Of a stretch of DNA of 64,000 nucleotides, positions 9,333 through 56,000 are shown piece after piece. Each line of letters opens with the position of its first letter. Within the stretch, counting starts at the first letter, position 1. The notes under the pieces are model-generated. The model was not told the DNA's origin. It worked only from the letters and a program-made list of their open reading frames with translations, and searched no databases. Position numbers and translations under genes: made by a program. Origin of the DNA: Cladocopium goreaui (taxonomy: Eukaryota > Sar > Dinophyceae > Suessiales > Symbiodiniaceae); assembly GCA_947184155.2 (NCBI GenBank), contig CAMXCT020006632.1, positions 191,001-255,000 on the forward strand. Direction: 5' to 3'.

Positions 9333-10610
9333 CTCAGAACTCAGCCAGGAGGGCTACGACTGGATTTTAAAGACTGCAGCCTGAAGCCCATGACCAGCAA
9401 GTTCCAGGTTTCTTGCATGATTCACAAAGTTGAGGAGGGACTTGGTGAGAGACGGCATAGTGGTGAGAGCGTTTTTAAGTAGCATTGGAACATATTGGAA
9501 CTTGCTGATATCATTTTTCACCGCAAGAGTTGCTACGCTGCTCAAACCCTAAGCTTGTGCAAAAGTGTTCTTGCCAATTGCGATTTGTAATCTGATAGTA
9601 CACCATGGTCTCTTGGAAATCAGCTTGTTGGACTATGATTCGCTCGAAGCCTCAGGATCAAATGCAGCACACATGTTATCCATAGCAATGCTCGTCGGAG
9701 ATTGTACAGAACAGAGACACAAGCAGGCCACAAAGTCACCTAGCCTTGTTAGCTGATGTCAGCTGTACAAAGCGCACATGAAATCTTGCTACATAGAGAT
9801 ACCACAGCCAATCTCTACAAGATTTGATGAATCACTACCTTAAATGCAACCGATCCAGACAGTCTTCTATGTGAAGGATTGAGTCATGTGGCCCTTTCCA
9901 TGATCGTGCTCAATGTCCGAGGCCACTCCTTATCCAAACCTACATGCTCTACGCATGTTTGCAAGTTCCAATCCCCATTCGTTGAGCTACTTGAGTTGTT
10001 TGGAGTGACTCCCAGTCTAGTCCAGAATTTCTCTGAAAATTCAATTGAAGATAATTGAAGTAATTGAAGATTGCCAGGCCGGAGGTTTGTCATGGTTTGT
10101 CGTATATTGTCGTGTAGAATGCCCACATATGCCCACTGCAGTATTTGTGGTACCCGACATCCATGCAGATCCTTGCAGGCCTCCATTCCTCGATCCGGTG
10201 GTTTCGTGGAGGATCCAAAATGTGCACGTGATGTGAGAAATGACACTATAGTAATATGGCTATGGACTATGGATCAATACCTATTAATACCATTTTTAGT
10301 GGGATGAACATCCATTTACCAGCTATTTTGATGTTCACCAGGGGTACAAGGTTTTGACACACTGCCATATATCGTAATACATTGTATCATACTGTATCAT
10401 ACTGTATCTGAATCTTCATGAATGTTCAACATTCCAGATTTCCAAGGCACTTTTGCAGCCTGAATTTGGTGTTTGGCAGGACCACTTCCAAGATGCCAAC
10501 TGCTTGGCACAAGCGAGCCATTGCTTCAGCGAGGCTGGTGAAGACTCCATGAGACTCGATGCTCCGACATATCCGACATATCCGACCTCAACCAGCAGTA
10601 GATATCAGTA
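9333..10610. other. Unassigned region
   Basis: No gene recognised. A period-10 duplication (TATCATACTG) lies at 10383-10408. Confidence 0.45.
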
Positions 10611-29490: not shown

Positions 29491-29551
29491 TTCATTTGGT
29501 TTCATTTGGTGTCATTTGGTTTCATTTGGTGTCATTTGGTTTCATTTGGTC
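29491..29551. repeat. Decamer repeat (TTTCATTTGG/TGTCATTTGG), about 6 copies
   Basis: Six 10-bp units alternating at one base, lying about 95 bp upstream of retroelement 1. Confidence 0.9.
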
Positions 29552-29643
29552 AGTGGCATTTGATTGGTCAGTGGCATTTGATCAATTCCTGCAATAATTT
29601 GTAATTATTGGTATATCTATGTATTATAATATCATATGATACA

Positions 29644-29766
29644 TACCCATGCATTGAGTTTGGCAGGCTTGGGTGTGCATGTATCCTCTTTAAGTGTTTC
29701 AATGAATGCTATCATTTTGGCTCAAGTAAACTTGAACCAAAATAGCATTCATTGCTGTTTTCTTTC
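29644..29766 (+). repeat. Left split direct repeat A1 with spliced-leader-like palindrome
   Basis: Outer left repeat of element 1. Positions 29701-29753 form a long imperfect palindrome: left arm 29701-29727, right arm 29730-29753, two-base spacer. The left arm contains TCATTTTGGCTCAAG (29712-29726), one base different from the last 15 nt of the dinoflagellate spliced leader. It reads in the sense of the element and lies about 55 nt upstream of ORF1. Similarity to A2 ends sharply after 29766. Confidence 0.9.
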
Positions 29767-29773
29767 TTGGTCT

Positions 29774-29794
29774 TGGTAAGGGGTGACCTTTCCA
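29774..29794 (+). repeat. GGYGA-loop hairpin 1 (loop GGTGA, non-coding)
   Basis: Stem TGGTAAGG/CCTTTCCA with 7 of 8 pairs. It lies between A1 and ORF1. Confidence 0.8.
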
Positions 29795-30676
29795 GACCTT
29801 GATTGGGTGGTTCAAACTATCTACAAGGGGCGACCTTGTATGCAGCGCAAACTCCCAGGAATCGATATCCCGGCAGCCACTGAGGCGAAGATCCTTCATG
29901 CTGCTGCTTTCCTGGAGTTCAAGAGCCACGTGGAAAGGCTGGCGCGGGAGGGCTCTGATGCTGCAGCATACACATGCTGGATGCATGGTATTGAAGTGTT
30001 GCATTCCCCCTACGTCATCACGACTGGGACAGATTCAGAACTTTTGCCCCCTCTGCCGAAGCTACCCTGTTGCCTTGATGACTGCCAGCGTTGCGCAGCT
30101 CATGTGGGGGGGTTCAAGTTCCCGTGGCTCGGCTTGTGGAACAGCCGTGGCGTTGTGTTGCCCGACGATGTGGCGCCTGCGGATGCTTGGGCGTACTACT
30201 ACCAGCACCAGGACCCAATGGACCTACTGCTGGTCGCCGCCTACAGGAAGCTCAAAGTGGCCGCTGACATCGTGCCCCAGGATCTCTACGGGCTGCAGCT
30301 CAGGTGCTCAGCGGGCGACGCTGGGCAACTGGGCTTGGGGGAGCTGTTCGATCAATGGAGGAGCTGGCTCAGATGCACAGGCCCTCACGAGCTCTTGCCG
30401 GTCTTCCTCGAGCCGCGGCATTTCCCCAGAGCACCTAGGGGGCGACCCTGGGTGGCCTGGGGGAGAGAAGGCGCCAGGGCACATCGAGCGCTATGTGGAT
30501 GGCTGGAATGCCAGGATGCAGGCATGCTTCAGCTGGGCACCGCCTGCACAGAGTGCGGAGATCCCACCAGGCGCGTGTGCTGGGCATGCTGCGTCGGGAT
30601 GTGTAGCGATTGCTTCACCTGGCGCGAGCCATGCAGCACTTGTGGAGGACGTAAGAAGATGTTTGCTGCAGGTTGA
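29783..30676 (+). CDS. Element 1 ORF1, cysteine-rich protein of unknown function
   Basis: Frame open from 29780. The first ATG is 29840; a GTG at 29783 is the only earlier start-like codon. Up to 297 residues with Trp/Tyr-rich middle parts and a C-terminal Cys cluster in CxxC pairs (CTECGDPTRRVCWACCVGMC followed by CSDC- and CSTC-type pairs). This suggests one or two zinc-binding sites of RING or B-box-like spacing, but I cannot name the family. The stop is 4 nt before the ATG of the recombinase frame at 30681, so the two may be translated from one transcript. Two GGYGA hairpins lie in the reading frame (29822 and 30432), both as GGG CGA codons. A nucleic-acid-binding accessory role is plausible but unproven. 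The 601-codon frame that overlaps it in another phase is a shadow up to 30680. Confidence 0.7.
   Translation: MTFPDLDWVVQTIYKGRPCMQRKLPGIDIPAATEAKILHAAAFLEFKSHVERLAREGSDAAAYTCWMHGIEVLHSPYVITTGTDSELLPPLPKLPCCLDDCQRCAAHVGGFKFPWLGLWNSRGVVLPDDVAPADAWAYYYQHQDPMDLLLVAAYRKLKVAADIVPQDLYGLQLRCSAGDAGQLGLGELFDQWRSWLRCTGPHELLPVFLEPRHFPRAPRGRPWVAWGREGARAHRALCGWLECQDAGMLQLGTACTECGDPTRRVCWACCVGMCSDCFTWREPCSTCGGRKKMFAAG
29822..29840 (+). repeat. GGYGA-loop hairpin 2 (loop GGCGA, coding)
   Basis: Perfect 7-bp stem TACAAGG/CCTTGTA. Read in ORF1 as Lys-Gly-Arg-Pro; T at the variable loop base would give UGA. Confidence 0.9.
30432..30454 (+). repeat. GGYGA-loop hairpin 3 (loop GGCGA, coding)
   Basis: 9-bp stem CACCTAGGG/CCCTGGGTG with one G-T pair. 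Read in ORF1 as Arg-Gly-Arg-Pro; T in the loop would give UGA. Confidence 0.9.
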
Positions 30677-30815
30677 TTTTATGACAGAGGAGGCACCTCT
30701 GAAGTCACCGCAGCATCTTTTTGCTCTCCGCACCTTAGCAATCTTGTTAGGGTGCAGCGCCATGGCATCAGGCGGCAAAGGCTACTATGCAGCGCAAGCG
30801 GCAGCCTCGTCCTCG

Positions 30816-30832
30816 TCAGGGGGTGACCCTGA
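30816..30832 (+). repeat. GGYGA-loop hairpin 4 (loop GGTGA, coding)
   Basis: Perfect 6-bp stem TCAGGG/CCCTGA. Read as Gly-Gly-Asp-Pro, a phase in which T is harmless. Confidence 0.85.
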
Positions 30833-31354
30833 ACCGGGATGGAGAGCAGCCGACTCCTTGATGATGATAGCTGCACAGCGGGCGCGTCAATGGAGGGAGA
30901 ATGAAGGCCTCCTGGACGACAACGACTTCGCCTATGCCTACACCGACTACGATCAAGTCGTTGGACTAGCTGGCCATCACGTAGCGGATGACTGGCTGCA
31001 GACAAGAGCAAGGGTGGAAGAGCACCTCCTTGCTGCTGGGGCCAAAGTCGTGGAGGACAACCCCAAGGGTTCCGTCACTCTGCGCCCTGTGCGCAAGACA
31101 ATCTACAAGAAAAAGCCCAAGGCCGTCAACGTCACCAAGAACCTGGATGAGGCCGTCCAAAAGCGGGTGAACGGCTTGGTGTCGATGTTTGTCGGAATGG
31201 GCGCATACAAACCAGCTGGCATCTTGACAGATACCCTCAAGGCCGAATGGAAACAAACGTGCAAGAGGATCGCCGAGAAGAAGGTGAAGGACGCTGAGAA
31301 GGCGACCATTGACCGAGTGGTCAACACCTGGTTGGAGCTGAGGGCCTTCTTGGA

Positions 31355-31374
31355 GAGTCGGGGGCGACCCGCTC
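31355..31374 (+). repeat. GGYGA-loop hairpin 5 (loop GGCGA, coding)
   Basis: Stem CGGG/CCCG continued by GAG/CTC across one bulged T. Read as Arg-Gly-Arg-Pro; T in the loop would give UGA. Confidence 0.75.
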
Positions 31375-31584
31375 CTCCTGGAATGGTCGACCTGGATCAG
31401 TTCCTCAACCATACCCAGGCGCCAGCACGAGCACTCCAAGCCTTGAAGTGGATGAACAAGAATGCCGACCAAGACATGGAGCTGGGAAACTTGCAAGTGC
31501 CTACAACACCCAGGGCGACTGGGCAGCGTGGGCAAGCACCAGTGGTGGAGCCGCCATTAGTGCAGGCCTTGGAGGACCACAGAG

Positions 31585-33687
31585 TTGCACGCGGTCGGCG
31601 ATGAGAGGTGGTCAGTTCTTCTGGCTCCTTGGATCATGTCGTTTGGCTGTTTGAGGTATGCGCACATCGCGCGGTCAGAACCTCGGCGCCTCACCGCTGC
31701 ATTCCTCCATTGCAGGTGCCCTAAGGGAAAACAAAAGCATGCCCGCGAAGGTTTCGACTTTGCGGTGCCGGCCACATTCGCCAACGGCTTCTTTTGGGCC
31801 AAGGAAGTGCTGGAGGCATACAGGACGCTGGCACCAGCAAGGCAGAGACTTGCAGGCCTCTGTTTTTCGGACGAAGGGCGCCCATGGACGATCCTAGAAG
31901 TGCAAGAGACGATGCAATAGGAAATGTCCGTGTTCCTCGACAATCCAGAAGACCTGACCACCTACAGCTGGAGGAGGCTTGCACCCACGGTGGCCCAGTT
32001 GTTAGGATGCAGGCCTGAAGAAATGGCAGCCCTGGGTGACTGGCAAAATAAGAGTGAGCAACCAGAGGTGGGGGCAATGGCATTTCACTATTCTTCGGCA
32101 AAATACGCCGCGTCGGTCAAGGTGAAATCCCTGATCTGGGGCGCTACGGCCAAGCTCGCTAGCAACCTGCTGTGGGAGGCAATCCCGCAGGCAGAGCTAG
32201 ATGCAGCCCGAGCTCATGGCCTGACTGAAGCCGACAGGTTGCTGCGACAAGACCGCCAACCTATCTGGGCCTCTGCACACAGCTTCCAGGACGTGAAGAA
32301 GAGGCTCAAGTTGTCACAGCAGTTCGTTGAAGCGGCACAGCAAGCCCGGCAAGAGGCCGAAGCCGCACCGGCACCTCAGATGCCTGATCAACTCAATGGC
32401 AAGGTGCTGACGGCCACTTTGAAGAATGGTAAGGCCATTTGCCCGGAGTTCCAGACGAACGAGTGCCCGAATCCGGCAGACTCCTGCCCCTTCGGAGTGC
32501 ACTTGTGTGCCATCCTACAAAAGTCAGGACGGGCATGTGGTGGCAAGCACGGCGCAGGCGTCTGCAACATCAAGCGGGCGGTGTTGGCCGCAACAGCAGT
32601 GCCAGCGGCACCCAAGCCATCGGCCACCTTGGTGCCGGCAGCCGTGGGGGAGAAGGCCACTTTTGGCCGGAAGAGAACCGCGGCGAGCGGTGCCACTGAC
32701 GACGAGATGGCCGAGGTGATGCGCACAGCTGTCAGGAAAGCCCGAGGTCAGGCTGCACCCAAGACTCCGCCTAAGGCGCCAGCCATTGCAGCCCCCAAGA
32801 CACCTCCGAAGGCTGCCGCTGCTACACCCAAGCCACCGGCCACAGCTGCGCAGTCCAGGGCTACAACCACAACGCCGAAGCGCTTGGCCGCTCCTGGGAA
32901 GCCACAGATCAAGGCCATGCCAAAGAAAGGCCGTGGCAAAGCAGCAGGAGACACCTTGGATCTCCACTTGGAGCGGTTGGGTGTGGGCTCAGGGACAGCC
33001 CAAGCCCCGACTTGCATCTGGACATCCCGGAAGGGTGGTGGCATCTACCTGGCAGGACTTCCAATGAGGCAGACGGTGGACAAGTTCCCCAAGACAGCGT
33101 TGCAGATCTGCTGCTTCCCGAATGGCCCTGAGAGCCGGGGGGGGGTGACCCTCCCGGGAGCTCAGTTGATGACCTTCGCGGCGGCATACAGCCAGGAACG
33201 CAACGAACAGTGGACAGACGTGTGGCCGGCCGTCAAGAACACTGTTTGGCACGGCGACAACGTCGTGGTGCACTGTATCAAGGGGCGACACCGGGGTGCT
33301 TTCTTAGGCATCCTTTGCCGGGCATTGCTGGCCGGTGAGTCCATTGAGGATGCCAACCACTACGTGGAGAGCCGCAGGGATACAGAGCTGAACAAGGTCA
33401 TTCGCGACCAAGGCATGCGGAAGTGGCTGCACAAGACCTTCCAGGACACCGCGGTGGGAACACAGCACCCTGAGCCGCAGGGATATGCAGCTACGGAGAG
33501 GTCCAGCACCCATGTCACGGTCGAGGACGGCATCACCTTGTGCCAGCATAAGCAGGCCGATGGGAAGGCGAAGCGCCTGGTGAACCCATACATGTCCACG
33601 GACGTCTTTGAAGCTCTGGCATGGGAGCGCCCCTGGTGTGACCAGTGCCTCCGTCGAGCGCCAGCGTCATGGTGGCCGCCTGCCTAA
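31585..33687 (+). pseudogene. Element 1 YR catalytic domain fused to zinc finger and phosphatase-like domain
   Basis: One frame broken by TAG at 31918-31920. Before the stop lies the first catalytic-Arg box (CLRYAHIARSEPRRL, Arg codon 31654). After it comes TYSWRRLAPT (31963 on), equivalent to HxxR with Tyr for His, then GDW and the likely nucleophile in FHYSSAKYA (Tyr codon 32089). Numbering residues from the ATG at 31924: a Cys/His zinc finger spans 173-214 (C173, C181, C188, H193, C195, C205, H209, C214), a Pro/Ala/Lys linker about 225-330, and a domain at about 355-490 with HCIKGRHRG, the CX5R signature of cysteine phosphatases (C451, R457). I know of no phosphatase on a YR retrotransposon. 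An RNA or protein phosphatase role is inference from that signature alone. Confidence 0.7.
33135..33157 (+). repeat. GGYGA-loop hairpin 6 (loop GGTGA, coding)
   Basis: 9-bp GC-rich stem with one G-T pair. Read as Gly-Val-Thr, so T is harmless. Confidence 0.8.
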
Positions 33688-34206
33688 GCTGCCCAAGCCG
33701 AATTTTTGGCCTTTGCGCTGATCAGCAGCACTGGCCCGTTCCGGCCATGGAGAGCCGAATTCATCAGCTCGGGGCTTGGATAAGAGCTTCAATCCAGCCT
33801 GCATGACCGCCCCCAGCAGTAACATCATGTGCGAGAGGAAAATAGTAGAGCCAGGTGACTTTCAGTAGGGTGCCCACTGAGCAAGTGCCGTGCTCTCATG
33901 TTTTTCGTTGTGTTTTCAAGTTTTTCCTTTCATGACAACGCACAAGACCGTCTGGGAGGGGGACCTCAGATAGTCCAGTGTACCACAGCTCTGTGGCGGC
34001 ATGAAGGTGATGTCATGTGAGGTCGCAACATAGCTGTGCGTTGTACACATGTCCAGATTTCACACCAGTGTATGTCAGGGTTCAGTTATTTCATGCCACG
34101 CCAGGCTGTTCCAGCACAACGCACGGGGGAGACCCGAGGCGCAGTTTTCAGTCAAAGGGAGGGGATCCCTGGGCCTTAGCTAGAGGGGTGTCCTCGAGAA
34201 TAGGCC
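33688..34206 (+). other. Internal non-coding spacer of element 1
   Basis: No credible coding. The motif ACAACGCAC occurs twice (near 33936 and 34115), each time followed by a G-rich hairpin-like stretch. It separates the ORF1-YR module from the Gag-RT module and may hold a 3' end, a splice acceptor or a second promoter, none of which can be shown from sequence. Confidence 0.5.
34180..34198 (+). repeat. Variant hairpin with GGTGT loop
   Basis: Stem CTAGAGG/CCTCGAG with 6 of 7 pairs and loop GGTGT, 8 nt upstream of the Gag-like ATG at 34207. Probably a diverged member of the GGYGA family. Confidence 0.5.
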
Positions 34207-35402
34207 ATGGAGACTGATAAAGTCCCACTGGAAAAGGGTTCCCCGGAGGAAATCCTAAGGAAGTTGGGTGACAACTTCTCGTTGGATGATGGGGTAATTA
34301 CAGCCCTGCTCCGGCTGGGCGTCGAAAGTTTGCAAGAGTTTCGTTTCCTCTGGGCATCGGAGCAAGCCATTGAGCCCTGGGTTGCTAAGCTGGGCCTGGG
34401 GGATAAGGCACTGCTGATGACGGCTCGAGTCCGCAGAGCATGGGCCGCAGTGGGACTCTACTATCGTCAGGTGGAGCAGGATCGATCCAAGATTGCACTG
34501 TCGGACTTGGACACCATGCTTGGGGAGACCGAGCTGCGCGACACCAAGCAGCAGTTTTGGAGACGCTACAAGATGCGCTTCCCCCCAGAGATCCACCCAG
34601 CAGACACCACCATCTCCAGAGTCGCCAGAGAGATGCAGAAGCGCATGCTTTGCGTGTACAACATATGGAGAGTGAAAACCCTTCAATTCCAGCTCACTAC
34701 ATCGCAGAAGAAGCGCAAACTCAGCGAAGGACTGTTCTTGGAAGATGGCGACGATGAGGAGGTGGTCACCCATGATGTTGACAACTACCTGGACAGGTTG
34801 TTCACCCTGATGTTGGCTTATGCCATGGCAGGGTGCTCTGGGGTGACCGGAGCACCAGATGCCGCGCAAGAGCTCAACTTAGGAGCCGATACAGTCAAGT
34901 TAACGTCCCCATGGACATCGTCTACAAGTACTACTTCAGAGCCAAGCGCAGTGTGGCAGGTCTGCCCACCTCACAGCGCATGCAATGGCTCCAGGCCAAA
35001 GATGTGGAGGAACGTAGTGAGTGGGTGTCCAAATTTCGTGAGTCTACGATGAGCCTGGGACAGGTGATCAGCGAGATCTACACGTCCAGGGACGCACATT
35101 GGTCTGCACCAGGGCCCGCTACCCCGGACAGGAAGAATGCAGCCCCCACTGCAGCCTCTACTGCAAGTCCATCTAAGGTGCCGCCAAGCACATCACCCTT
35201 GAAGTTGGGCAAACCGATCAATGGCAAACCCGTGGCGACGGCAATGAAGGATGGTACCAAACTTTGCCCGCAATTTCAACGCGGAGGCTGTAAGGCCAAA
35301 CCATGTCCTCAAGGAGCCCATCGATGCGGAGCAGTTATCAGAAAAGATCGGGTATGTGGAGCGTTCAACCACGGTGCAGCCAATTGCACTGGTAAGCGTT
35401 GA
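34207..35402 (+). pseudogene. Element 1 Gag-like zinc-finger protein (one frameshift)
   Basis: Two overlapping frames (34207-35052 and 34833-35402) together make one Gag-like protein of about 398 residues. The switch fits a single missing base near 34892, where ...LGADTV must join VNVPMDIVYKYYFRAKR. The N-terminal part is helical and charged; a linker of Pro/Ala/Ser precedes a C-terminal zinc finger (LCPQFQRGGCKAKPCPQGAH, then RCG, a VCG turn and NHGAANC). That finger is clearly homologous to the one on the recombinase ORF. Stop UGA at 35400-35402, in the same frame as the following methyltransferase-like ORF, so the two were probably one Gag-Pol frame: CGA to UGA is a single C-to-T change. 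A capsid or RNA-binding role is inferred from position and finger type. Confidence 0.7.
34832..34856 (+). repeat. GGYGA-loop hairpin 7 (loop GGTGA, coding)
   Basis: Longest stem of the set: GGTGCTCTGG/CCGGAGCACC, 10 pairs with one G-T. Read as Gly-Val-Thr. Confidence 0.9.
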
Positions 35403-35453
35403 CACGCCCCAGAAGAGGAGGCGGCTGCCTCTTTTGGGTCAGATGAGCTAGAG

Positions 35454-35478
35454 CCGCAAGAGGGGCGACCTCTTATGG
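35454..35478 (+). repeat. GGYGA-loop hairpin 8 (loop GGCGA, coding)
   Basis: Stem AAGAGG/CCTCTT, extended outward by three further pairs. Read as Glu-Gly-Arg-Pro in the open stretch between the Gag UGA and the next ATG, which lies in its 3' arm; T in the loop would give UGA. Confidence 0.9.
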
Positions 35479-37025
35479 CAGATCTGATGGCAGGTCCCAA
35501 CGCACCCCTCACCAAAGCATTCATCAGTTGCGGGTGGCAATGCATTACAGTGGATTGGTTGTTGGATGACAGCCATGACCTGTCAGATGAGCGCCGGCAA
35601 CACTCCCTGAGCAAACAGCTTGAAGAGGTGATCTTCATAGCGGCAGCTATCGACTGTTCGACAAAGAGTAGGGCCAGGGAGATCCCCAGGAAATTTGAAG
35701 ACGGGCGGCCAGCCCCTGGTCCTCTTCGATCCGAGGTCTACCCTGATGGCCTGCCTCACCTCAACAGCCGGGATGCCCAAAGAGTTGACCTTGACAACAA
35801 AGCCTGCAACTATGTCTTGGGCGAAATTCAGAAGTTGCGGGATAGGGGGGGAGGCAGTGTGCGTGAAAACCCTGCCCGCTCCTTGCACTGGTGGACGTCC
35901 ACAGAGGTGACTATGTGGGAATCGGGACAATGGTTCGACACAGCCTACGCGGCATGTACTTTGGGTGGGGCGCGTTGCAAGCATCAAGTGCTACGGCACA
36001 ATGTGGAGGAGATCCAACGCTGGCCCCCAGCCAATTGCCACCATGTACACGACCCACAGGAATGGACCCCCTACACCTCCGACGGCCAGCGGTTCTACCC
36101 ATCCAAAGAAGAGGCAGAGTACACAGCAGTCCTTGCCTTTGCGATTGCAGTGTCGGCTAGTTGGTGGGCAGTGCGCACAGGTCTAGCCGTCCTGCATGTC
36201 CCACGCATGCCCACGTTCATGTCAGTCGGACGCCGTGAACATTGGCTGGATATGGACCCGCGCGCAATGCGGGAGTGGGCAATGGCACCACTGGCGGTGA
36301 CGCTGGGCCTCACAGAATCCTTGAGGGCTGAACGATCGGGGTTACCGGTCCGAAGGCTCGTCAAAGAGGTGATGATCGAGAACAACAAGCTACCACGCAA
36401 TACCATCTACGTTGGCCGAGGCAGCTTTCATCATCGCCTATCGACGACCAAGTGGAAATCGCCATGGACACCAGGCCACAACTGCGAAGCCGGTGAATGG
36501 CCGGCCAGGTACATCGTCCATATTCGAACATCACCTTTGTGGGACGCCTTGCATGAGCTTAGCAATATGGAGCTGGCGTGCGACTGCCCCATGGAGCACC
36601 TGTGCGAAGCGGACATGCTCATTGGCCTCTTCTTCGATGCCACCGCCCCTGGGGGTGACCCAATGCAGCGGGGCACCGATGGCCGATGGAGTAGGACTGT
36701 GGCATTGTTGCAAGGGATCCAGGCTATTCCCAGGGGGGTAGCCCTACCCATGATGAGCCAAGAAGCACTGGTATTGGCATTCCAAAAGCTTTTCCCCGAG
36801 CACTGGTTCAAGAACTACAAGTTTGCAATGATTGAAGACCTCATCAACAGCCCGCCCTTCTGCTCATATGCCGCTTGGCTTGCAGAGCGAGGAGAAGCTT
36901 GGGACGGGCCCCTAGTCCCGCAGGTCAGTGAGGCAGCTTGCACGGATTGGGGACGGGTGCCAAGTGGGTGCGATGACACACCGTGCCGCTTTGCCCCCAC
37001 TGCTGCCGTTCAACTTGGATCCTGA
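35475..37025 (+). CDS. Element 1 methyltransferase-like plus DUF4326-like protein
   Basis: 516 residues from the first ATG; the frame is open back to 35403. Residues 15-175 follow the motif order of cytosine-C5-type methyltransferases in degenerate form: FISCGWQCITVD (motif I position), AAIDCSTKSRAREIP at 57-71 (motif IV position, Cys61, but DCS instead of PCQ), RENPARSLHWW at 130-140 (ENP for ENV), GGARCKH at 164-170 (motif VIII position). Catalysis is uncertain given the changed motif IV. Residues about 308-386 (NTIYVGRGSF, then ACDCP and LCEADMLIG) resemble DUF4326, a small Cys-containing domain of unknown function. The C-terminal end is lost to a +1 shift: one extra A at 36962-36963 moves the reading frame into the RT ORF (VGAMTHRAALPP). 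It lies between Gag and RT as part of Pol. Confidence 0.55.
   Translation: MADLMAGPNAPLTKAFISCGWQCITVDWLLDDSHDLSDERRQHSLSKQLEEVIFIAAAIDCSTKSRAREIPRKFEDGRPAPGPLRSEVYPDGLPHLNSRDAQRVDLDNKACNYVLGEIQKLRDRGGGSVRENPARSLHWWTSTEVTMWESGQWFDTAYAACTLGGARCKHQVLRHNVEEIQRWPPANCHHVHDPQEWTPYTSDGQRFYPSKEEAEYTAVLAFAIAVSASWWAVRTGLAVLHVPRMPTFMSVGRREHWLDMDPRAMREWAMAPLAVTLGLTESLRAERSGLPVRRLVKEVMIENNKLPRNTIYVGRGSFHHRLSTTKWKSPWTPGHNCEAGEWPARYIVHIRTSPLWDALHELSNMELACDCPMEHLCEADMLIGLFFDATAPGGDPMQRGTDGRWSRTVALLQGIQAIPRGVALPMMSQEALVLAFQKLFPEHWFKNYKFAMIEDLINSPPFCSYAAWLAERGEAWDGPLVPQVSEAACTDWGRVPSGCDDTPCRFAPTAAVQLGS
36650..36662 (+). repeat. GGYGA-loop hairpin 9 (loop GGTGA, coding)
   Basis: Shortest stem, TGGG/CCCA. Read as Gly-Gly-Asp-Pro. 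Confidence 0.6.
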
Positions 37026-38712
37026 GGACCACTTCAACCAAGCAGTCCAACGAGCCCAGCAACCGTTGCCCTACGAAGACCTCCCAGTCGTCGACTTAGA
37101 CCTGGAGTTCGTAGCAGATGCATATGTGGCACATGGCCAGCAGTTGCGCCCGTGGCGGCAGCAGGCAGTCGGGGCCATGCGAGAGCTGAAGAGACGCTGG
37201 GAGGGGGTGACCCTCCACTTGCGCTCCTTCCAAGAGCCGGCCATCCAACAGGTCACACGGCACCGCGATGTGGGGCTCATCGCATTGCTGATGCTGCTGA
37301 CATCATGGGCAGACACCAGCTTTCCCTATGGTCTGATCCGTGGGCTGCCTGCAGTGGGCTACGCACCACCTTATGGGATATTCCCCCAACAGCCAGCTGA
37401 GGTGATCAGCATGGCGGATGTGTTGGAGGGATGGCAGGAACACAATCAGCACATCTTGGGCCAGCTGAGAGCAGGCAAGGACGATGAGTTCCTCCTGCAG
37501 CAGTCATTGGAGGACGCAGCGAATGGCTTCTGCACAGAGCCCTTGCGACGGACAGATTTCCTGCGGGCCATTGGCAACAAGGCCCATCGATTGATCCCGC
37601 GTTGCGTGATCACACAGAGCTCAGGCAAGCAGCGTGTGATCGACAATGGAGACACCGGAGGACAATCAGCCTTGTCATCTGATGCTAACAAGCTCACATT
37701 GTGCAGTCCATTGCGTCCTGCCCAGCACATTCGCCTTGCAATGCATCGTTGGACAGAGGATGAGATGGCCGATTTCTTCGCGAACGATGCCTGGGAAACA
37801 GGACAAGAAGATCTGCCTTCAGCATACAGGTATTGCCCTATGGCATTGCAGGAAAGTCTGGGCTGCGTGGTGTGGTACCATCACGAATGGCAAACCCCTG
37901 CATACCAAGTCTACGCTGGGCTACTCTTCGGACTGCCACTGGCGGTTACATCATTCAACCGTTTTTCCAGACTATTGGAGGCACTTGCCAGGCGTTTTTG
38001 CCGAGTTTTGACATCCCTGTACTTTGATGATGCAACCATTACAGACTTGCGATCCTCAAAAGGGTCAGGCCAATGGGCCATGAATCAATTGTGTTCTCTC
38101 ATCGGATCCCCCTTCGCAGAGGACAAGAAACAACCAATGCAGAGCACCGGAACCTTTTTGGGATTGACTCATGATCTTAGCTCCATCAACGAAACAGGGC
38201 ATGTACAGTTTTGGGCTCGAGAACGGCTCCATGACAAAGTACGTGACATGTTGGCAACAGCCAGGGTGACTGGCCATTTTAGCCGAGGGGCAGCATCGAA
38301 GCTGTACGGCTTGGCCAACTTCCTGGAACAGGGCATCTACGGTCGAGTGGGATATGGTGGCCTTATGGCCATCAAAGCCAGGCAAGACGAGACAACCTCG
38401 ACCATCACTCCCGAGATTGAAGCATGCTTCGAGGTGATCGAAGCGGTTATGCGCTTTCAGCCAAAACGGGAATTTCCCGTTCTGCACCTGGATCATCTGC
38501 GCTTTTTGGCAGCCTCCGACGCAGCTGTCGAAGCAGACAATCCTGGTTCAGGAGGTTTTCACCTGATCTTTTTCCAGCCTGACGGATCACAAATTCGTCA
38601 CAGTTTTGTCGCGACCAAATGCAGAACTACGAGCACTTTGGCAACCTGCAGGGACGCATATCGCCCAATTGGAACTATCTATGGTGCTCTACGCCCTTGT
38701 CGAAAGGCCTGA
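36928..38712 (+). CDS. Element 1 reverse transcriptase with start of RNase H
   Basis: RNA-dependent DNA polymerase of the YR-retrotransposon type. Homology begins at about 36964 (VGAMTHRAALPPLLPFNL), after the shift out of the preceding ORF; the listed ATG is only the first one in frame. A thumb/fingers region is followed by QEDLPSAYRYCP (motif A), LLFGLPLAVTSFNRF (motif B) and SLYFDDATITD (motif C, catalytic YFDD). Around 38500 it reads FLAASDAAVEADNPGSGGFH, the first strand of RNase H with its catalytic Asp. The frame then goes wrong: a +1 shift within the T run at 38604-38607 moves the rest of RNase H to the next frame. The polymerase domain itself is intact. It would copy element RNA using a YR-type circular route rather than an integrase. 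Confidence 0.88.
   Translation: MRQLARIGDGCQVGAMTHRAALPPLLPFNLDPEDHFNQAVQRAQQPLPYEDLPVVDLDLEFVADAYVAHGQQLRPWRQQAVGAMRELKRRWEGVTLHLRSFQEPAIQQVTRHRDVGLIALLMLLTSWADTSFPYGLIRGLPAVGYAPPYGIFPQQPAEVISMADVLEGWQEHNQHILGQLRAGKDDEFLLQQSLEDAANGFCTEPLRRTDFLRAIGNKAHRLIPRCVITQSSGKQRVIDNGDTGGQSALSSDANKLTLCSPLRPAQHIRLAMHRWTEDEMADFFANDAWETGQEDLPSAYRYCPMALQESLGCVVWYHHEWQTPAYQVYAGLLFGLPLAVTSFNRFSRLLEALARRFCRVLTSLYFDDATITDLRSSKGSGQWAMNQLCSLIGSPFAEDKKQPMQSTGTFLGLTHDLSSINETGHVQFWARERLHDKVRDMLATARVTGHFSRGAASKLYGLANFLEQGIYGRVGYGGLMAIKARQDETTSTITPEIEACFEVIEAVMRFQPKREFPVLHLDHLRFLAASDAAVEADNPGSGGFHLIFFQPDGSQIRHSFVATKCRTTSTLATCRDAYRPIGTIYGALRPCRKA
37199..37217 (+). repeat. GGYGA-loop hairpin 10 (loop GGTGA, coding)
   Basis: Perfect 7-bp stem TGGAGGG/CCCTCCA. 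Read as Gly-Val-Thr. Confidence 0.9.
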
Positions 38713-39028
38713 TCTGTTTCGAAATCGACACGGCCTATGGTTTTTGGACAACGTAGCAGCCGTCATGACGCTAGTGAGAGGACGTTCTAGCAATGCCGAC
38801 TTAGCGAAGCTAGGTCATTTGATCCATCTAGCTCTGTTTGCACTGCGAGCCCAAGGATATTGGGAGTACGTCCAGAGCAAGAGCAACTGGGCTGACGATA
38901 TCAGCCGCCTTGGCGTCAATGATCCATGGTGGCGATGCCATGGTTTTGAATTTTACTCGTCGTACCTCCCTACAATCTTGTTCCAGCTACCCTTTGCAGC
39001 TGTCATTCTCACCTTCGAATACCTTTAG
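38606..39028 (+). pseudogene. Element 1 RNase H, C-terminal part (frame-shifted)
   Basis: Continues the RNase H fold begun in the RT frame. IAQLELSMVLYAL supplies the helix with catalytic Glu, LWFLDNVAAVMTLVRG the second Asp, and SNWADDISRLG the last Asp with the family's N-x-A-D-x-x-S-R ending. A one-base excess in TTTT at 38604-38607 separates it from the first Asp. It ends at 39028, 22 nt before B1. Without that indel the RT-RNase H protein would be complete. Confidence 0.85.
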
Positions 39029-39049
39029 TGCTTTGGGAATTGAGTGCAT

Positions 39050-39262
39050 TGGGTGATTCCTGCAGAGCAGGTTCCAGCCTGGGTTGCCAGGCAGCTGACC
39101 AGTGGCGAAACTGGTCTGGGGCTATGTACGTGTCACATCGTGACAACCCAAAGCAAACCTGAGGATTGCAGGTGAAATTGACTGAGCATAGGCATAGCTG
39201 TGGAAAAAGAAAGCTGCGGGAGCGCGAGACAGTATCTGTTTCATATGACACTTTGAGATGTA
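39050..39262 (+). repeat. Internal split direct repeat B1
   Basis: 213 bp, one mismatch to B2 (T39189 versus G39670). Shares its last two bases (TA) with the start of A2. Confidence 0.95.
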
Positions 39263-39383
39263 CCCATGCATTGAGTTTGGCAGGCTTGGGTGTGCATGTA
39301 TCATCTTTAAGTGTTTCAATGAATGCTACCATTTTGGCTCAAGTAAACTTGAACCAAAATAGCATTCATTGCTGTTTTCTTTC
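39261..39383 (+). repeat. Internal split direct repeat A2 with spliced-leader-like palindrome
   Basis: 123 bp, two mismatches to A1. Here the leader-like stretch is exact over CCATTTTGGCTCAAG (39329-39343). The palindrome spans 39318-39370. Confidence 0.95.
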
Positions 39384-39530
39384 CCCACCCTCCCAACCCT
39401 AAGAGCCGACCTCCCGTGGAGATGTCCGCCTAGGTTAGGGGAGCCTGCACGGCAGGCGAGTACATAGCCTCTATCGGGGATCCTCTCTTGGGGCGACCAA
39501 GAGAGACTTTCCCTCCCTTAGGTTAAGGGA
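39384..39530 (+). other. Spacer between A2 and B2
   Basis: 147 bp not present next to A1 or B1. It contains inverted repeat GCCTG/CAGGC (around 39448-39462), hairpin 11, and a repeated CTTAGGTTA/CCTAGGTTA element. In circular-intermediate models this region lies between the two copied ends and may hold the priming signal; that is inference. Confidence 0.6.
39483..39505 (+). repeat. GGYGA-loop hairpin 11 (loop GGCGA, non-coding)
   Basis: Perfect 9-bp stem CTCTCTTGG/CCAAGAGAG between A2 and B2. Confidence 0.95.
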
Positions 39531-39743
39531 TGGGTGATTCCTGCAGAGCAGGTTCCAGCCTGGGTTGCCAGGCAGCTGACCAGTGGCGAAACTGGTCTGG
39601 GGCTATGTACGTGTCACATCGTGACAACCCAAAGCAAACCTGAGGATTGCAGGTGAAATTGACTGAGCAGAGGCATAGCTGTGGAAAAAGAAAGCTGCGG
39701 GAGCGCGAGACAGTATCTGTTTCATATGACACTTTGAGATGTA
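39531..39743 (+). repeat. Right split direct repeat B2
   Basis: Outer right end of element 1. The match to B1 stops exactly at GATGTA, after which host AT-rich DNA begins. Confidence 0.95.
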
Positions 39744-50000: not shown

Positions 50001-53000
50001 TATATGTTTGTATGTATATTTGTATATATGTATATGTGTATACTACTAGTATATGTGTATATGTGTTTATGTATTATATATATATGAAACGTATATATAT
50101 ATATATTATGTATATGTACATATATATATGTATATACATATGTGTATATATGTATATATATGTATATATATATACACATATATATATACATGTGTATATG
50201 ATGAATCCTGTAGGAGGGTTATGCACGAGCACCCGGCATGCGGAGTTTCGGCTCACAGTGGAAGGGTCGAAGCTGGGCACAGCCTCCTCAGGGAGGTGTG
50301 CCCTTGGAGTGGGGCATGGATGCCCTGAAGCAATATGGGAAGGAGCTGGGTCTGACCGTGGATGAGGTGGACCTGGCCCTTCGACTTGAGAGGCCGGCAA
50401 GTGATGCCTCTTGGGTCACTGCGGCTGATCTGGGCCCTGAGGCCCTGCGCATAGCGGTAGAGACCATGGAGTCTGGCCGCTACGTGGAATATGCCTGCTA
50501 TGATGACCGCGGCAATCCACAAGGAAGGGCCATCATCAAGCTACGAAGCTGGGAGGATCAAGTGCAAGGACTCCTGACAGCTGAGCATGGTGAGGCCTCA
50601 GACGAGTACTACCAATGGTACGCTGACAACACGCTGGCAGCTGGTGCAGTCTACCACATATGCAGTGGTGAGCAAAAGCGCTGCCGAATGAAGCTGGCGA
50701 GGGGTGACAAGCGTGAGATGGTCCATTTGGATCATTGGAGGCTGTTGAGTCCTGCGGCCATGATGAATGCGGCCTACCTGCGCCCGCTGGGTGAGCGGCT
50801 GGGCCGAAAGCAGCTTGAGGCCAAGGCTCAAGCCAAGATGGCAGCACCAGTGGTAGACCCTCCAGGGGGAACCGGCTTGGAAGCTGCAGTGGAAGCCGCT
50901 AGGAAGGCGGTTGAGAGCATTGGACCGGCACAAGGTCAGGCTAGAGAGCGCAGCCCGAGGCGAAGGCACTCTCAGTCACCCAGTGAAAAGAGGGGAAGGA
51001 CGAGGAGTTTGGATGAGCATCTCCGAAAGGGGATTGAGAGGACCAAGGAGCTTGAAAGGTCCAGGTCAAAGAAACGTGGCAGGACAGACAAGACGGACAG
51101 ACGAGAGAGGTCCAGTGACTCCAGTCGGTCCAGTGGGAGCTCGCATTTTCGGAAAACCTCAGCTCGGGGAGGGGACCTTTGGCGAGTTGCCCAAAAGAAG
51201 CCCGGGCACCTGGCGGTCAGATCTCTCAACGAGATGACTCGCTATTTATCAGAGCGGACCGATTGGGCCGAGGACGAGAACGCCTGGAGCGGGCAAAAGG
51301 TGATGGCGTACTTGAATCAGGTCGTCCTTGTGAATCACCAGCCCGCAAAGATAGGAGTCCGGTCCCACAGAGAGCTGGTGACACTAGCCATGGCTCTAGA
51401 CGCCATTCTGGCGGGCCAATTAAAGCAGAGCCTGGATCTGCTCATGCAGCGCTTCAAGGCGGTCGAGGCATCCTTCCAGGAAGGGGGATGGAATACCGCG
51501 AAGCATCTGGAGATCATTCCCCCCTCGGCGGCATCGCTCACGAGGGAGGACGAGCGCCACATGGCCGCCAGGTCAGAACTCCAAGCAGTCAAGCTGAGAG
51601 AGAGTCTGGCAAAGCTGCAAAGACCGAAATAGGGAGTCGGCAGCGGGCTAGACCCGGGGACGGGGAAGTCCGTGAGTCGTCACCCCCACGTCCAAGAAGC
51701 TCCGGCCGAGCGGCGCCCAAGCGCTTGGAGGACCGGCCCAGAGAAGCAAGGGACAAGAGTCCATTTCGAGGAAAGGCGCCGGCAGGATTCCCGACAAGAG
51801 GGCCACCCCTTGACGTCCTTGACGATCGGCCACAAGTCAGATCCCGAAAAAGAAGGGCCGCCTCCGAGCCCAAGGAACTCTACAGGGAGCGAGACAGGAG
51901 GCAATCCAGTGAGCCCCGGAAGAAGAGCAGAAAGGCGAAAGCAGTGGATACAGAAGCAAAAGGAAAGGAGGAAGAACTTCCGAAAAGCCGGAAGGCCAGA
52001 CGCCGACGACGGGAAGAATCGGAGGAATGTGACCTTGACTTGAATGCGGCGGCCAGCTCCCTTTTGAGGGAGTGGCTGTCAGACAATCCCCCCAAAGGGT
52101 TATCCTCCGCTCAGTTGGTGAAACACCTGGCCTTGCAGTTGATGGCAGTTGAAGGCCCCCTGAAGGAATACTTCCTTTGGTCTCTGCAATCCCCGTCACC
52201 GAGAGAGGGGAGGATGCAGAATCTCTTTCCTCTCCCGTTGTGGTATGATGGAAGGGAGGCCTTGAATGAAATTTTAGATGAGATGAAGGTTAAAGATGAG
52301 CCGGGTGACTGGCGAAAGCGAGGGGATACAAAAGGTCGAGCCTCCAAGGTTTTGAGAGGCCAGGGTCTCCGGGCGTGGCATGGCCTTGTTGTCGTGATGC
52401 TGAATTTTATGTATGGTGACAGGGCAGTGGGGACAAGGCCTACGCCCAGTGGTCAGGCCACGGCCCCACAGGAGAGGGCCCTTGAAACCTTGTGGGAGCT
52501 GGTCCGGGTTTTCATTGATGAGAAGGAGGCCAATGGGGTACCGCGGACGTCAATGGAAGACTGGGACGTGGCCATTGACTCACTTAGGGTGAGCTATACC
52601 GGTGAGGTGATTGAAAAGGCGGTCCCCCTCACCCTGAATCAGGTTTTGCCGGGCTTGCCCTCTCCGGAGCATGGTGGCCTGGTAGACATCCTTGCGGTGT
52701 TGCCAGAAGAGCTCCAGGAGACAGTGAAGCACCCGGAGAAACTGGTGCTGAGCCCTCCACAAGGGTTACCACCACGTCCAAAGGTTCATGCATCCAGTGC
52801 AGAGTGGAACAAGATAGCTAAAGCCCTCTACGAGAGAGGTTTGGTTAGGCCAGTCCGCAGGTGCCCTGAAATGGAGGGCGTCAAGCTCCTCAACGGGGCC
52901 TTTGGGGTTCCAAAGCCTGGAAAGGTGACACCAGAGGGGGACCCCGTCCTTCGTTTTATCATAGACCTCCGCAGCACCAATTTCTTCATGGCCCAGATCC

Positions 53001-56000
53001 AGGGCGACACCGGGCTATTGACGGGTGCTGCATCTTTTCAGAGGCTGATCATTGAGGACCAGCATGAGCTTTTGGTTTCTGGCGAAGACCTCACCTCAGC
53101 CTTCTATCTCTTCCGTTTGCCTGAGGCTTGGGCTGACTACATGGTGATAGAAAAGGAGGTGCCACTGGAGGCGCTGGACCTCGAAGGCAGTGGCATGACC
53201 CGTTTAGGGGTATGCGTACTGCCGATGGGCTGGGCCTCAGCAGTTGGCCTCATGCAGGCCGCACACCGGCAGATCGCCCTGAGAAGCAGGGCCCTTGGAG
53301 GCGCTGGTCTGAGCGCCCTGGCCGAAATTTCGAGGGCAGCAGTTTTTCCAGACCTGAGCGAGATGCCGGCTTGGAACATCTACTTGGACGACACGACAGT
53401 GATCGAACAAGTTGAGAAGTGTGTGGTCGCTGAGTTGGAAGGAAAGCCGGCTGAAGAGCAAGAGCAGTTGCGGAAGGCGTATGCCTGGTGGGGCATACCT
53501 GTCAATGCGGAAAAGGCATTGAAGCGGGTGAGAGAAGCTGAACGCCTTGGCTCATTGATAGATGGAAAGAATGGAGTGCTGAGGACCAAGGCAAAGCGGA
53601 GCCTAGATCTGTACGGATTGGGTTCTTGGATCAGATCTCTCAAGAAGGTCCCAAGAAAGGCCTTGCAGGTGTACGCTGGAAAGGCGGTCCACATTCTGCA
53701 GTTTCGGAGATGTTTATTTTCTGTGATGGAGGTGATTTTTGTGGAAATTGCAAGGGGTGCTGAGGAGATTGTGATCAGCGGTGCGCTGCAGCAAGAAATG
53801 CTTTTGCTAGAGGCTATGCTGCCTCTTGCTCAGTTTGACCTGAAGGCGCGGGTGGACCCTGTGGTGACCTGCAGTGATGCCTGTGAGACCGGGGGAGGAA
53901 TGTGCATTTCCTCGAGGCTCACACGGGCTGGGCAAGAGGAAGCCATGCGCCTGGCCGATCATGGGATCCAGACGCCACCCTCGGGGTCACAAGAAGGAAA
54001 GCTGGAAAATCAAAGCTACTTGTCATAGACCGACCAGGACGTTTCCGTCAGGTTTCCAACCTTCACGCGGGCAATTCCGCGCAAGAAACCGCCACCATCA
54101 CCAGCCGGCTTGAGCGGAACTGACGAGGTGGCGAAGCAACGTTGGGTGGAAGACAAGTTCCGCTACCCGCCGTACACCTATGCTGAAGTCTACATGGTGA
54201 AACAAGATGGGATTCTGAGACCGCTGAAAGCCCTTGAAAGGGAGGTCCTCATGGGGTTTCCAAGGGGCTACACGGCAGCTCTGTCAAAGAAAACCCCTCA
54301 AGGGGAAGATGAAGTACAAGCAGCAGAAGATATGCGCTGCGCTGCACTGGGAAATTCGTTTCACACAAACACGGTGGCCAGTCTCATTGACCTGGCGCTT
54401 TTCAAGATGGGTTTGAAACCCTTGATCGGGGCAAAGCAGATCGTGGCTGCATTTGTCCGGTCGGCCCAGCAGCCAGCTGAACCAGAGGCGCCAGTCAAAG
54501 ATGACCTCTCAGACACCGAGCAGGTGGAGAGAGGCCGTGAGGATGATGAAGTGACGGTGGCCGGTGAGTTGGAGATGACCGCCATTCAAGAAGTGTCAGA
54601 ACAATTTCCAACGGATGAAGAATTACTTGAAAAGGAACGGAAGCTGAGTTCCAAGCTGGTGGCAGCTTTTGTCAGAAGACAAGAGTTCCGTGGATCAGAT
54701 GTGCGGCTGGATTTGGGAAGTTTGTTCCGGCCGGATTCCTTCCCCCGCGGAAGCATCGATCCATCAAGATGGCTGTGGCATCCGGCTCAAGCCTACCCCT
54801 TTGAGCGCTCAGAGCACATAAATGTGTTGGAGCTTAGAGCGCTGATCCACTCCTTCGAATGGAGGGTAAGATCAAGCCAGTTTTCTCGTTGCAGGGCACT
54901 ACACCTGACCGACTCCATGGTGGCGTTGGCGGTGGTCGTCAAGGGACGTTCCAGTGCCAAAGTGCTCAATCGACTTCTGCGAAGGTTTGCCGCCCTACAA
55001 CTGGCGGCGGGTATTTACCCCGTCTGTGGCTGGGTTGAATCAGAAGACAACCCAGCAGACGAACCTTCCAGACGCTATGCCTACGAGGGTACTTGAAGGT
55101 CATAGGACCAAAGAGTCGAGAGCACAAGCAAGGAGAGAACTGGGAAAACTTAGCCATCAGGTGTTGGGGCAAAAGACAGAAAGGAGGTACCACGAATGTT
55201 TCACGGCATTTTGCCGGTTTCACCAACTGCAACGCAATTTTGTGTTACCTCAATTTGAGGATTTTGATGAAATGGTTGCTGAGTATGTGGAAGTCCTTTG
55301 GGAATCCGGTGAGGCCAAGTCCTTGGCAAATTACACTTTGGCCGCCATACAACATTTTAAGCCACAGTCAAAGCAACACATCCCATGGAGTTGGAAGCTG
55401 GTAAAGGTATGGAATCAAGTGGAGCTTCCCAACCGTGCCACACCTATGTCACCGCAAATGGTGTTGGCTTTTGCGGGTGTAGGCCTAAAATGGAAACACC
55501 CTAGGTTTGCTTGGCTGGTGATCGTGGCTTTTGCACTCTTCCTGAGGACAGGCGAATTGCTCTCCTTGGGCCCAAAGGACATCACTTTTGGCAACAATAA
55601 AGCTGTTGTCTTTATATCCAGTTCCAAAGGAACCAAGAAGGCGTTCTTACCTCTAGAACGCCTGGAGTTGACAGAGCCGTCAGCCCTGCATGCGCTCAGG
55701 GAACTGATGAAGCTGTCAAAGCAATCACCCGTGTTTTGGGTTGAGTCTAGGAGATCTTTTATGGATACCTGGCACTCAGTGGTTGCTGACCTCGGCCTCC
55801 CAGAAGGGTTTTATAAGCCCTACTCTCTTAGGAGAGGTGGTGCCACCAGTGCATATAAAAATGGTGCATCACTAGATGAGCTGGTGACAAAAGGCCGATG
55901 GCAGCACATCCACACTGCCAGAATTTACCTAGACACTGGCCTACAGGCACTGGCCACTTTACAAATCCCCACAGCCGCCCACCCTCGCATCCAAAGTGCC

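Follow-up and report, generated by a model that had tools for sequence, protein, structure and literature searches.

Sense-strand RNA hairpins with one loop on unlike stems in a DIRS-type retrotransposon of Cladocopium goreaui, and a second loop word in related families

Retroviral nucleocapsid zinc knuckles bind GGNG loops, and Smaug and CsrA are proteins that read a short loop on an arbitrary stem in the many host mRNAs they regulate; to our knowledge, the choice of its own RNA by a retroelement is known from few cases, mostly with a single local signal. The dispersed packaging signals of small RNA viruses and hepatitis B virus (HBV) consist of many genome-wide stem-loops with a short common motif (PMC6281560, PMC7612645, PMC7793301 and PMC3593212, in the passages available), which in HBV is the loop motif RGAG (PMC7612645, likewise). 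In retroviruses, Ty1 and Ty3, RNA structures mark the retroelement RNA for packaging; those of Ty1 lie at the 5' end, and the available passages of these papers do not describe a multi-copy loop along the whole RNA (PMC4974528, PMC5454406). Here we analyse a DIRS-type retrotransposon, family F1, in a stretch of 64,000 nucleotides from the dinoflagellate Cladocopium goreaui (contig CAMXCT020006632.1, positions 191,001 to 255,000; hereafter the window), in which one loop, GGYGA, recurs on unlike stems (Table 1). As in the dispersed packaging signals, multiple stem-loops lie along the RNA in one strand and a common loop motif sits on unlike stems; the differences are that the host is an algal retrotransposon, that many stems are perfect and that sister families use another loop word. 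Compared with the sites of Smaug and CsrA, these are concentrated in an element family.

The original prediction had reported eleven copies of GGGGYGACC, confined to this element and each centred in a hairpin. Both statements held: all 11 copies in the window lie on the + strand within 29,780-39,498, shuffled sequences contain 0.53 on average and at most 2 (100 shuffles), and every copy supplies the loop and closing pairs of a hairpin with at least 4 pairs, G-U counted. However, eleven members is too low a count. With Watson-Crick pairs only, the element contains 17, 13 and 8 GGYGA hairpins with at least 4, 5 and 6 pairs, against means of 0.076, 0.02 and 0.006 and maxima of 2, 1 and 1 in 500 dinucleotide shuffles, and when G-U is allowed the number with at least 4 pairs is 19. 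The two flanking pairs are not constant either, as had been supposed: what the hairpins share is the loop GGYGA alone, and their arms differ from one hairpin to the next. They are spaced over 10 kb at a mean distance of 539 (standard deviation 362) and, as predicted, occur in several open reading frames (ORFs) and in non-coding parts, with codon phases 0, 1 and 2 all represented; this refers to the window ORFs as they stand, some borders of which are displaced by frame damage in the window copy. The damage is located at 31570-31925 and 34840-34910, where comparison with related proteins reveals frame shifts and an in-frame stop, and other copies have longer open frames.

Listed blindly, with no loop named in advance, the pentaloop hairpins of the whole element that reach 5 Watson-Crick pairs number 26, 13 of them with GGYGA. 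Among the 50 GGYGA words of the element, 17 reach 4 pairs and 13 reach 5; the one-letter variants do so in 9/320 (three of these being GGRGA) and 1/320 cases (GGGGA), respectively. Outside the element the window contains 103 GGYGA, not one of which has a stem of at least 4 pairs, and the reverse-complement loop TCRCC forms no hairpin in the element. In folds of 150 nt, the probability of the closing pair exceeded 0.5 at 14 of the 19 sites, at 0/31 other GGYGA of the element and at 1/103 outside it. When hairpins were tallied blindly by the first two and the last loop letters, GG..A was the top class in the window element (18 against an expected 1.23, with no class above 6 in 40 shuffles) and also in a more diverged copy, L028 (19). 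In other stretches of the window the top loop classes comprised 4 to 11 hairpins, with 11 on the reverse strand of a second element, E2, 10 at 40.7-50 kb and 8 at 10-20 kb; several of these classes exceed the shuffles, and those inspected (some, not each) are simple repeats. Rfam returned two matches in total, both far under the gathering score and neither over a GGYGA hairpin.

The restriction to one retrotransposon in the original prediction proved too narrow, as related families carry hairpins of the same kind with another loop word. The comparison covered families F1, F2, F3 and F4 and element E2 of one genome. No GGYGA hairpins occur in F2 (L026, L027, L029, L030); F2 and F4 instead have hairpins with the loop AGNN(N)A, 10-18 per copy, with sense and antisense counts of 16/0 in L026 and 15/1 in L033. 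The AG..A motif was picked after inspection of L026 and L027, which have 16 and 19 such loops with at least 5 pairs (expected 1.03, maxima 5 and 4 in 60 shuffles), and the other copies served as a later check. It held in L029 (18; about 80% identical to L026) and L030 (19), with one and two of these, respectively, being second copies in repeat B, as well as in F4, where L033 has 20 against an expected 1.27 (no signature above 6 in 40 shuffles) and L034 has 10 against 0.9 (no signature above 7). In the blind loop tally of L026, AG..A was the top class (16). In those F2 loops that have a G-C closing pair, the letters that separate AG from the final A are free; G-C closes 18/19 hairpins of L026 and 10/22 of L033. 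The Pol proteins of F1 (L028) are 51% identical to those of both F4 (L033, over 1200 aa) and F2 (L029, over 600 aa), those of F2 (L029) and F4 (L033) are 54% identical over 589 aa, and F3 (L031) is 38-41% identical to the other three. Since F2 and F4 have the same loop form and F1 another, the loop word is not distinct in every family. Neither F3 (L031, L032) nor E2 has GGYGA hairpins or, among hairpins with at least 6 pairs, any common loop, simple AT repeats aside.

The hairpins are not explained by the encoded proteins. In 1000 synonymous-codon shuffles of the window ORFs, hairpins with at least 4, 5 and 6 pairs numbered 0.55, 0.23 and 0.16 on average (maxima 4, 2 and 2), compared with 14, 11 and 6 observed. 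At the threshold of 5 pairs, 200 shuffles each of further copies (maxima 2 to 5) gave similar results in F1 (L028, 9 vs 0.24; L013, 10 vs 0.25) and in other families (L026, 13 vs 0.9; L029, 8 vs 0.35; L033, 11 vs 0.47), and the AG code in F3 (L031) gave 1 vs 0.29. As the synonymous-codon shuffles fail to reproduce the hairpins, selection acts on the nucleic acid. At the protein level, the peptide signature of the DNA word showed no clear excess in the reverse transcriptase (RT) protein set (GVT 44 vs 38.8) and was not used; GGDP and GRP were in excess in the ORF1 protein set, but there homologous positions were counted many times. The interior of the arms of the 19 window hairpins contains 4 G-U, 0 C-A and 2 other mismatches; by chance, G-U and C-A would be about equally frequent (0.120 and 0.125 per pair). 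Under a uniform rule and with one copy per family (window, L026 and L033), the interior non-Watson-Crick pairs are 12 G-U, 0 C-A and 10 other, and C-A pairs are also absent inside the arms of L028, L029 and L030. Pairing in the sense RNA tolerates G-U in place of a pair but not C-A, and pairing in the complementary strand the reverse; the presence of G-U and absence of C-A thus indicate that pairing matters in the sense RNA, not in its complement. Antisense hairpins with the loop word of the family ("code-loop" hairpins) number 0 in L026, L027, L028 and L029 and 1 each in L030 and L033; L034 has 6 antisense and 10 sense, and its inner ~3.9 kb (L034:2063-6003) is inverted relative to L033. That the hairpins are under selection as RNA is thus well supported. 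The original prediction had left open RNA or DNA hairpins; the codon shuffles, G-U without C-A, and the slow change of the loop and inner arms described below support narrowing this to sense-strand RNA.

Fifteen F1 copies (L009-L023; RT region 88-98% identical) each have 12-18 GGYGA hairpins of 4 or more pairs and lack TCRCC hairpins; the two lowest counts are those of L017 and L018, in which the match to the element begins only at about position 30960-30977. In a site-by-copy table of the 15 copies (241/285 cells usable; the other 44 had gaps or differed by more than 40%), changes affected the loop Y in 22/241 cells and the four fixed letters in 5/964, and base changes amounted to 65/2982 in the arms and 305/5766 in the flanks. 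The claim that arms vary is therefore correct between hairpins inside the element, but between element copies each arm is mostly conserved. Fifteen of the 21 distinct arm changes break a pair; breaks found in more than one copy affect pairs 6 to 9, and each break within pairs 1 to 5 is private to a single copy, which suggests that an inner stem of 4-6 pairs suffices. Of the 46 GGYGA in the more distant L028 (81% DNA identity), 15 form hairpins of 4 or more pairs; this copy keeps most sites and has some of its own, and in the partial copies L024 and L025 (coding pieces at 74-81%) 6/19 and 4/24 GGYGA form hairpins. Between the window and L028, all five inner pairs were kept in 10/12 code-loop hairpins and in 17/44 other hairpins, with 0.058 vs 0.157 arm changes per base; between L026 and L029 of F2 the corresponding values were 13/16 and 14/30, and 0.037 vs 0.157. 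Hairpins with gaps, less than 50% identity or AT-only arms are omitted from this comparison.

From the observed hairpins, their excess, strand and conservation, and the two loop words, we infer that a protein reads the loop on a free stem at many sites of the sense transcript and that this self-recognition serves packaging, a reading to which we assign a probability of about 0.58. The loop of the selected hairpins (GGYGA in F1, AGNN(N)A in the sister families) would be recognised by a protein encoded by the element itself; the stem would merely present the loop, many unlike stems of 4-10 bp being sufficient, and about 19-25 sites along the element RNA would be bound at many places at once. As an outcome, the element's own RNA would be chosen for packaging into a replication particle or for reverse transcription; the available literature passages contain no description of a replication particle of these elements. 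Because the loop word differs between families, it would let a family select its own RNA among the many relatives in the genome.

Judged from protein sequence, the best candidate for the loop reader may be the CCCH zinc-finger module of the ORF1 protein, perhaps together with that of the Gag-like ORF. A simple pattern scan of L028, L026, L033, L031, L032 and E2 indicated that the Gag-like ORF ends in a CCCH-kind module in all four families (F1-F4) and that ORF1 contains a second module in F1 (L028), F2 (L026) and F4 (L033); F3 (L031, L032) has only the Gag-like module, and none was found in the four ORFs of E2. Across the four families and E2, the ORF1 module co-occurs with the code hairpins, which is a correlation over few cases. 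The more specific proposal, in which a clade of dinoflagellate DIRS elements carries a family-specific loop word about 20 times per RNA, read by its own CCCH protein as a co-evolving address that changes as families diverge and distinguishes its RNA from that of other families in one nucleus, is tentative and in our estimate falls a little short of an even chance.

Several observations weigh against self-recognition by loop reading. Folding fails to favour 5 of the 19 hairpins (29782, 32682, 33144, 38265, 38433), and in L028 the hairpins at 32682, 37206 and 38265 are missing, as is the variant at 34161, and the site at 39492 is wholly different. The check on arm covariation suggested in the original prediction gave a divided answer: between the window and L028, 5/7 changed inner pairs are still paired vs 13/58 in other hairpins, whereas between L026 and L029 only 1/6 are, vs 15/42. 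Double-sided changes that keep the pairing are few; they were seen in two AGNN(N)A hairpins (L027 vs the other three F2 copies; L027 vs L029). Since other hairpins show such changes too, the case rests on conservation, strand and shuffles. The CCCH link involves four families and E2, with F3 and E2 being more distant in general. Moreover, the ORFs scanned with Pfam yielded neither a capsid nor an RNA-binding domain above cut-off, the model of the Gag-like protein (pLDDT 75.7) had no PDB match at E below 0.001, and sequence searches of the PDB yielded nothing credible.

The main rival to packaging is another use at the RNA level, in which the selected hairpins would serve the translation of several ORFs, stability or export, nuclear retention or the binding of a host protein. 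The same evidence for sense-strand selection would suit any loop-binding protein, and the hairpins occur in coding and non-coding parts alike. Nevertheless, a host reader would have no obvious need for a different loop word per family, sites over the whole 10 kb suit binding in many copies better than one local control step, and no link between hairpins and frame borders was established, the borders in the window copy being partly damage; we therefore regard such a use as unlikely, though it deserves serious consideration. A function in DNA, with hairpins of the single-stranded cDNA serving a recombinase or the formation of circular cDNA, is considerably less probable. Elements with split direct repeats are thought to use circular DNA for integration, and integrons have single-strand sites that are recognised by structure. 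On the other hand, G-U without C-A inside the arms favours the sense RNA over its complement, a one-site integration scheme offers no evident role for nineteen sites, many of them coding, and the loop is constant between sites while the arms are not. For recoding or recombinase binding by the hairpins, both mentioned in the original prediction, nothing was found in favour, and they stand as unsupported possibilities.

The original prediction had also offered a fold-back origin, in which mobile mini-hairpins or a copying error would insert inverted copies of the flank around a GGYGA core. A constant core with unrelated arms within one element would fit such an origin. However, protein relatives align mostly without gaps across the four RT hairpins (gaps in 2/86 at 37206, 7/103 at 37401, 3/91 at 38265 and 2/79 at 38433). 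Upstream, gaps were present in 0/15 relatives at 30314, 1/15 at 30441, 4/30 at 30822, 2/26 at 31363, 4/21 at 31514, 3/9 at 32682, 0/5 at 33144, 0/1 at 34267, 0/2 at 34842 and 0/6 at 35627, and at 36654, in a variable linker, in 19/39. Copies retain the sites in place with mainly point changes, the one at 81% identity having most of them at homologous places, and aligning copies with and without a hairpin showed the losses in L028 at 32682, 37206 and 38265 to leave the length unchanged; whole units present or absent between homologous sites were not seen. The hairpins have a single orientation, and none occurs elsewhere in the window. Insertion or fold-back copying is rejected as the origin, with only a very slight residual probability. 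An origin by chance, or as a side effect of protein sequence or codon usage, has nothing more than the GC-rich composition in its favour; it is refuted by the dinucleotide and synonymous-codon shuffles and by the lack of GGYGA hairpins in E2 and F3, and we consider it the least probable of all, with practically no weight.

The host element can be assigned to the DIRS type by its split direct repeats in the order A-coding-B-A-B and by the kinship of its RT to dinoflagellate elements, as judged from protein relatives. The F1 Pol has 202 protein relatives at E ≤ 0.001; among the 120 listed, some have a precomputed PF00078 and some are named Symbiodinium or Polarella. In the 1.17-Gb assembly, 40 scored places (185 candidates) match the RT region 37600-38700 at 88-100%, and no relatives of the element were confirmed in IMG/VR and GTDB contigs. 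A tyrosine recombinase is a usual component of DIRS elements. Pfam gave no match to one in the window ORFs, in P0128 or in ORF1 of L026, L028 and L031; a segment of ORF1 resembles it by eye only, and the AlphaFold model was too poor for use (pLDDT 35.7). The published dinoflagellate group SymbioDIRS resembles F1 in host, in repeat order (A-coding-B-A-B) and in a divergent RT, and the elements described there carry a tyrosine-recombinase ORF (PMC5890265, in the passages available); the word "hairpin" does not occur in the main text of that paper. Membership in the strict subgroup SymbioDIRS-Dnmt3, described as having a DNMT domain (PMC5890265, likewise), was rejected, as Pfam detects no such domain in the F1 window copy and assigns DUF4326 (PF14216), without PF00145, to the ORF at 35475-37022. 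This DUF4326 lies in Pol upstream of the RT; it is present in F3 too and falls below the cut-off in F2. In titles and abstract openings, with subscription literature little covered, hairpins of this kind are undescribed in DIRS or dinoflagellate elements, which is no proof of their novelty.

Table 1. Features of the F1 element in the window copy (positions in the window).
Feature	Positions	Strand	Remarks
DIRS-type retrotransposon, family F1	29620..39743	+	10.1 kb; layout A1 - coding - B1 - A2 - B2; direct repeats and homologous proteins
Repeat A1	29620..29766	+	91% to A2
Repeat B1	39050..39262	+	100% to B2
Repeat A2	39237..39383	+	direct-repeat search
Repeat B2	39531..39743	+	direct-repeat search
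Gag-like ORF	34207..35402	+	split over two frames in window copy
Reverse transcriptase part of Pol	36928..38712	+	RVT_1 E 0.0013, 18.9 bits vs cut-off 29.6; protein relatives
CCCH zinc-finger module, ORF1 protein	32398..32578	+	window sequence, limits by eye
CCCH zinc-finger module, Gag-like ORF	35207..35402	+	window sequence, limits by eye; relatives
GGTGA hairpin	29774..29794	+	8 pairs, one T.T
GGCGA hairpin	29822..29840	+	7 bp
GGCGA hairpin	30305..30327	+	9 bp, one G-U
GGCGA hairpin	30432..30454	+	9 bp, one G-U
GGTGA hairpin	30816..30832	+	6 bp
GGCGA hairpin	31359..31371	+	4 bp
GGCGA hairpin	31509..31523	+	5 bp
GGCGA hairpin	32677..32691	+	5 bp, closing pair C-G
GGTGA hairpin	33135..33157	+	9 bp, one G-U
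GGTGA hairpin	34260..34278	+	7 bp
GGTGA hairpin	34832..34856	+	10 bp, one G-U
GGCGA hairpin	35458..35474	+	6 bp
GGTGA hairpin	35621..35637	+	6 bp, closing pair A-T
GGTGA hairpin	36650..36662	+	4 bp
GGTGA hairpin	37200..37216	+	6 bp
GGTGA hairpin	37396..37410	+	5 bp, closing pair A-T
GGTGA hairpin	38260..38274	+	5 bp
GGTGA hairpin	38426..38444	+	7 bp, closing pair A-T
GGCGA hairpin	39483..39505	+	9 bp, non-coding, between A2 and B2
Possible variant hairpin, loop GGAGA	34124..34136	+	4 bp
Possible variant hairpin, loop GGGGA	34156..34170	+	5 bp, absent in L028
Possible variant hairpin, loop GGAGA	36004..36016	+	4 bp
Possible variant hairpin, loop GGATA	38850..38864	+	5 bp; one pair with double-sided change, pairing kept in L028
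Possible variant hairpin in B1, 6-nt loop GGCGAA	39097..39116	+	7 bp; second copy in B2 (39578-39597)

Some further features of these elements were noted. Tandem ten-base repeats (TCATTTGGTN) lie immediately upstream of the F1 element, at 29492-29551. In its A repeats (29700-29760 and 39317-39377), a piece resembling the dinoflagellate spliced leader forms the arm of a hairpin. The A repeat of F2 has a similar hairpin, TTTGGCTCA - AGTC - TGAGCCAAA (L026:95-116 and 9677-9698). An HCxxGxxR motif of the dual-specificity-phosphatase kind is found in ORF1 of all three families scanned (window 33260-33300; L028 residue 796; L026 residue 1138; L031 residue 684), with a Pfam DSPc match below cut-off in L028 (E 0.037). 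One hairpin outside the GGYGA set, with the loop CCATGAC (35567-35585), has double-sided changes at two pairs, both kept in L028. Element E2 (50100-56051) has a Phage_integrase match in the ORF at 54954-56048, and the ends of four of the RT proteins match it weakly by tblastn at ~54.8-55.1 kb.

By analogy, the nearest known system would be the dispersed packaging signals of RNA viruses (PMC6281560, in the passages available), a role that for the hairpins described here is a prediction. The blind tally of hairpin loops provides a search method for other elements and viruses. With a countable set of hairpins and a loop word that differs between related families, the choice of an element's own RNA becomes directly testable. 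If the packaging reading is true, the idea of dispersed packaging signals, developed for RNA viruses, would also apply to cellular retrotransposons, here with one genome harbouring two diverged loop words.

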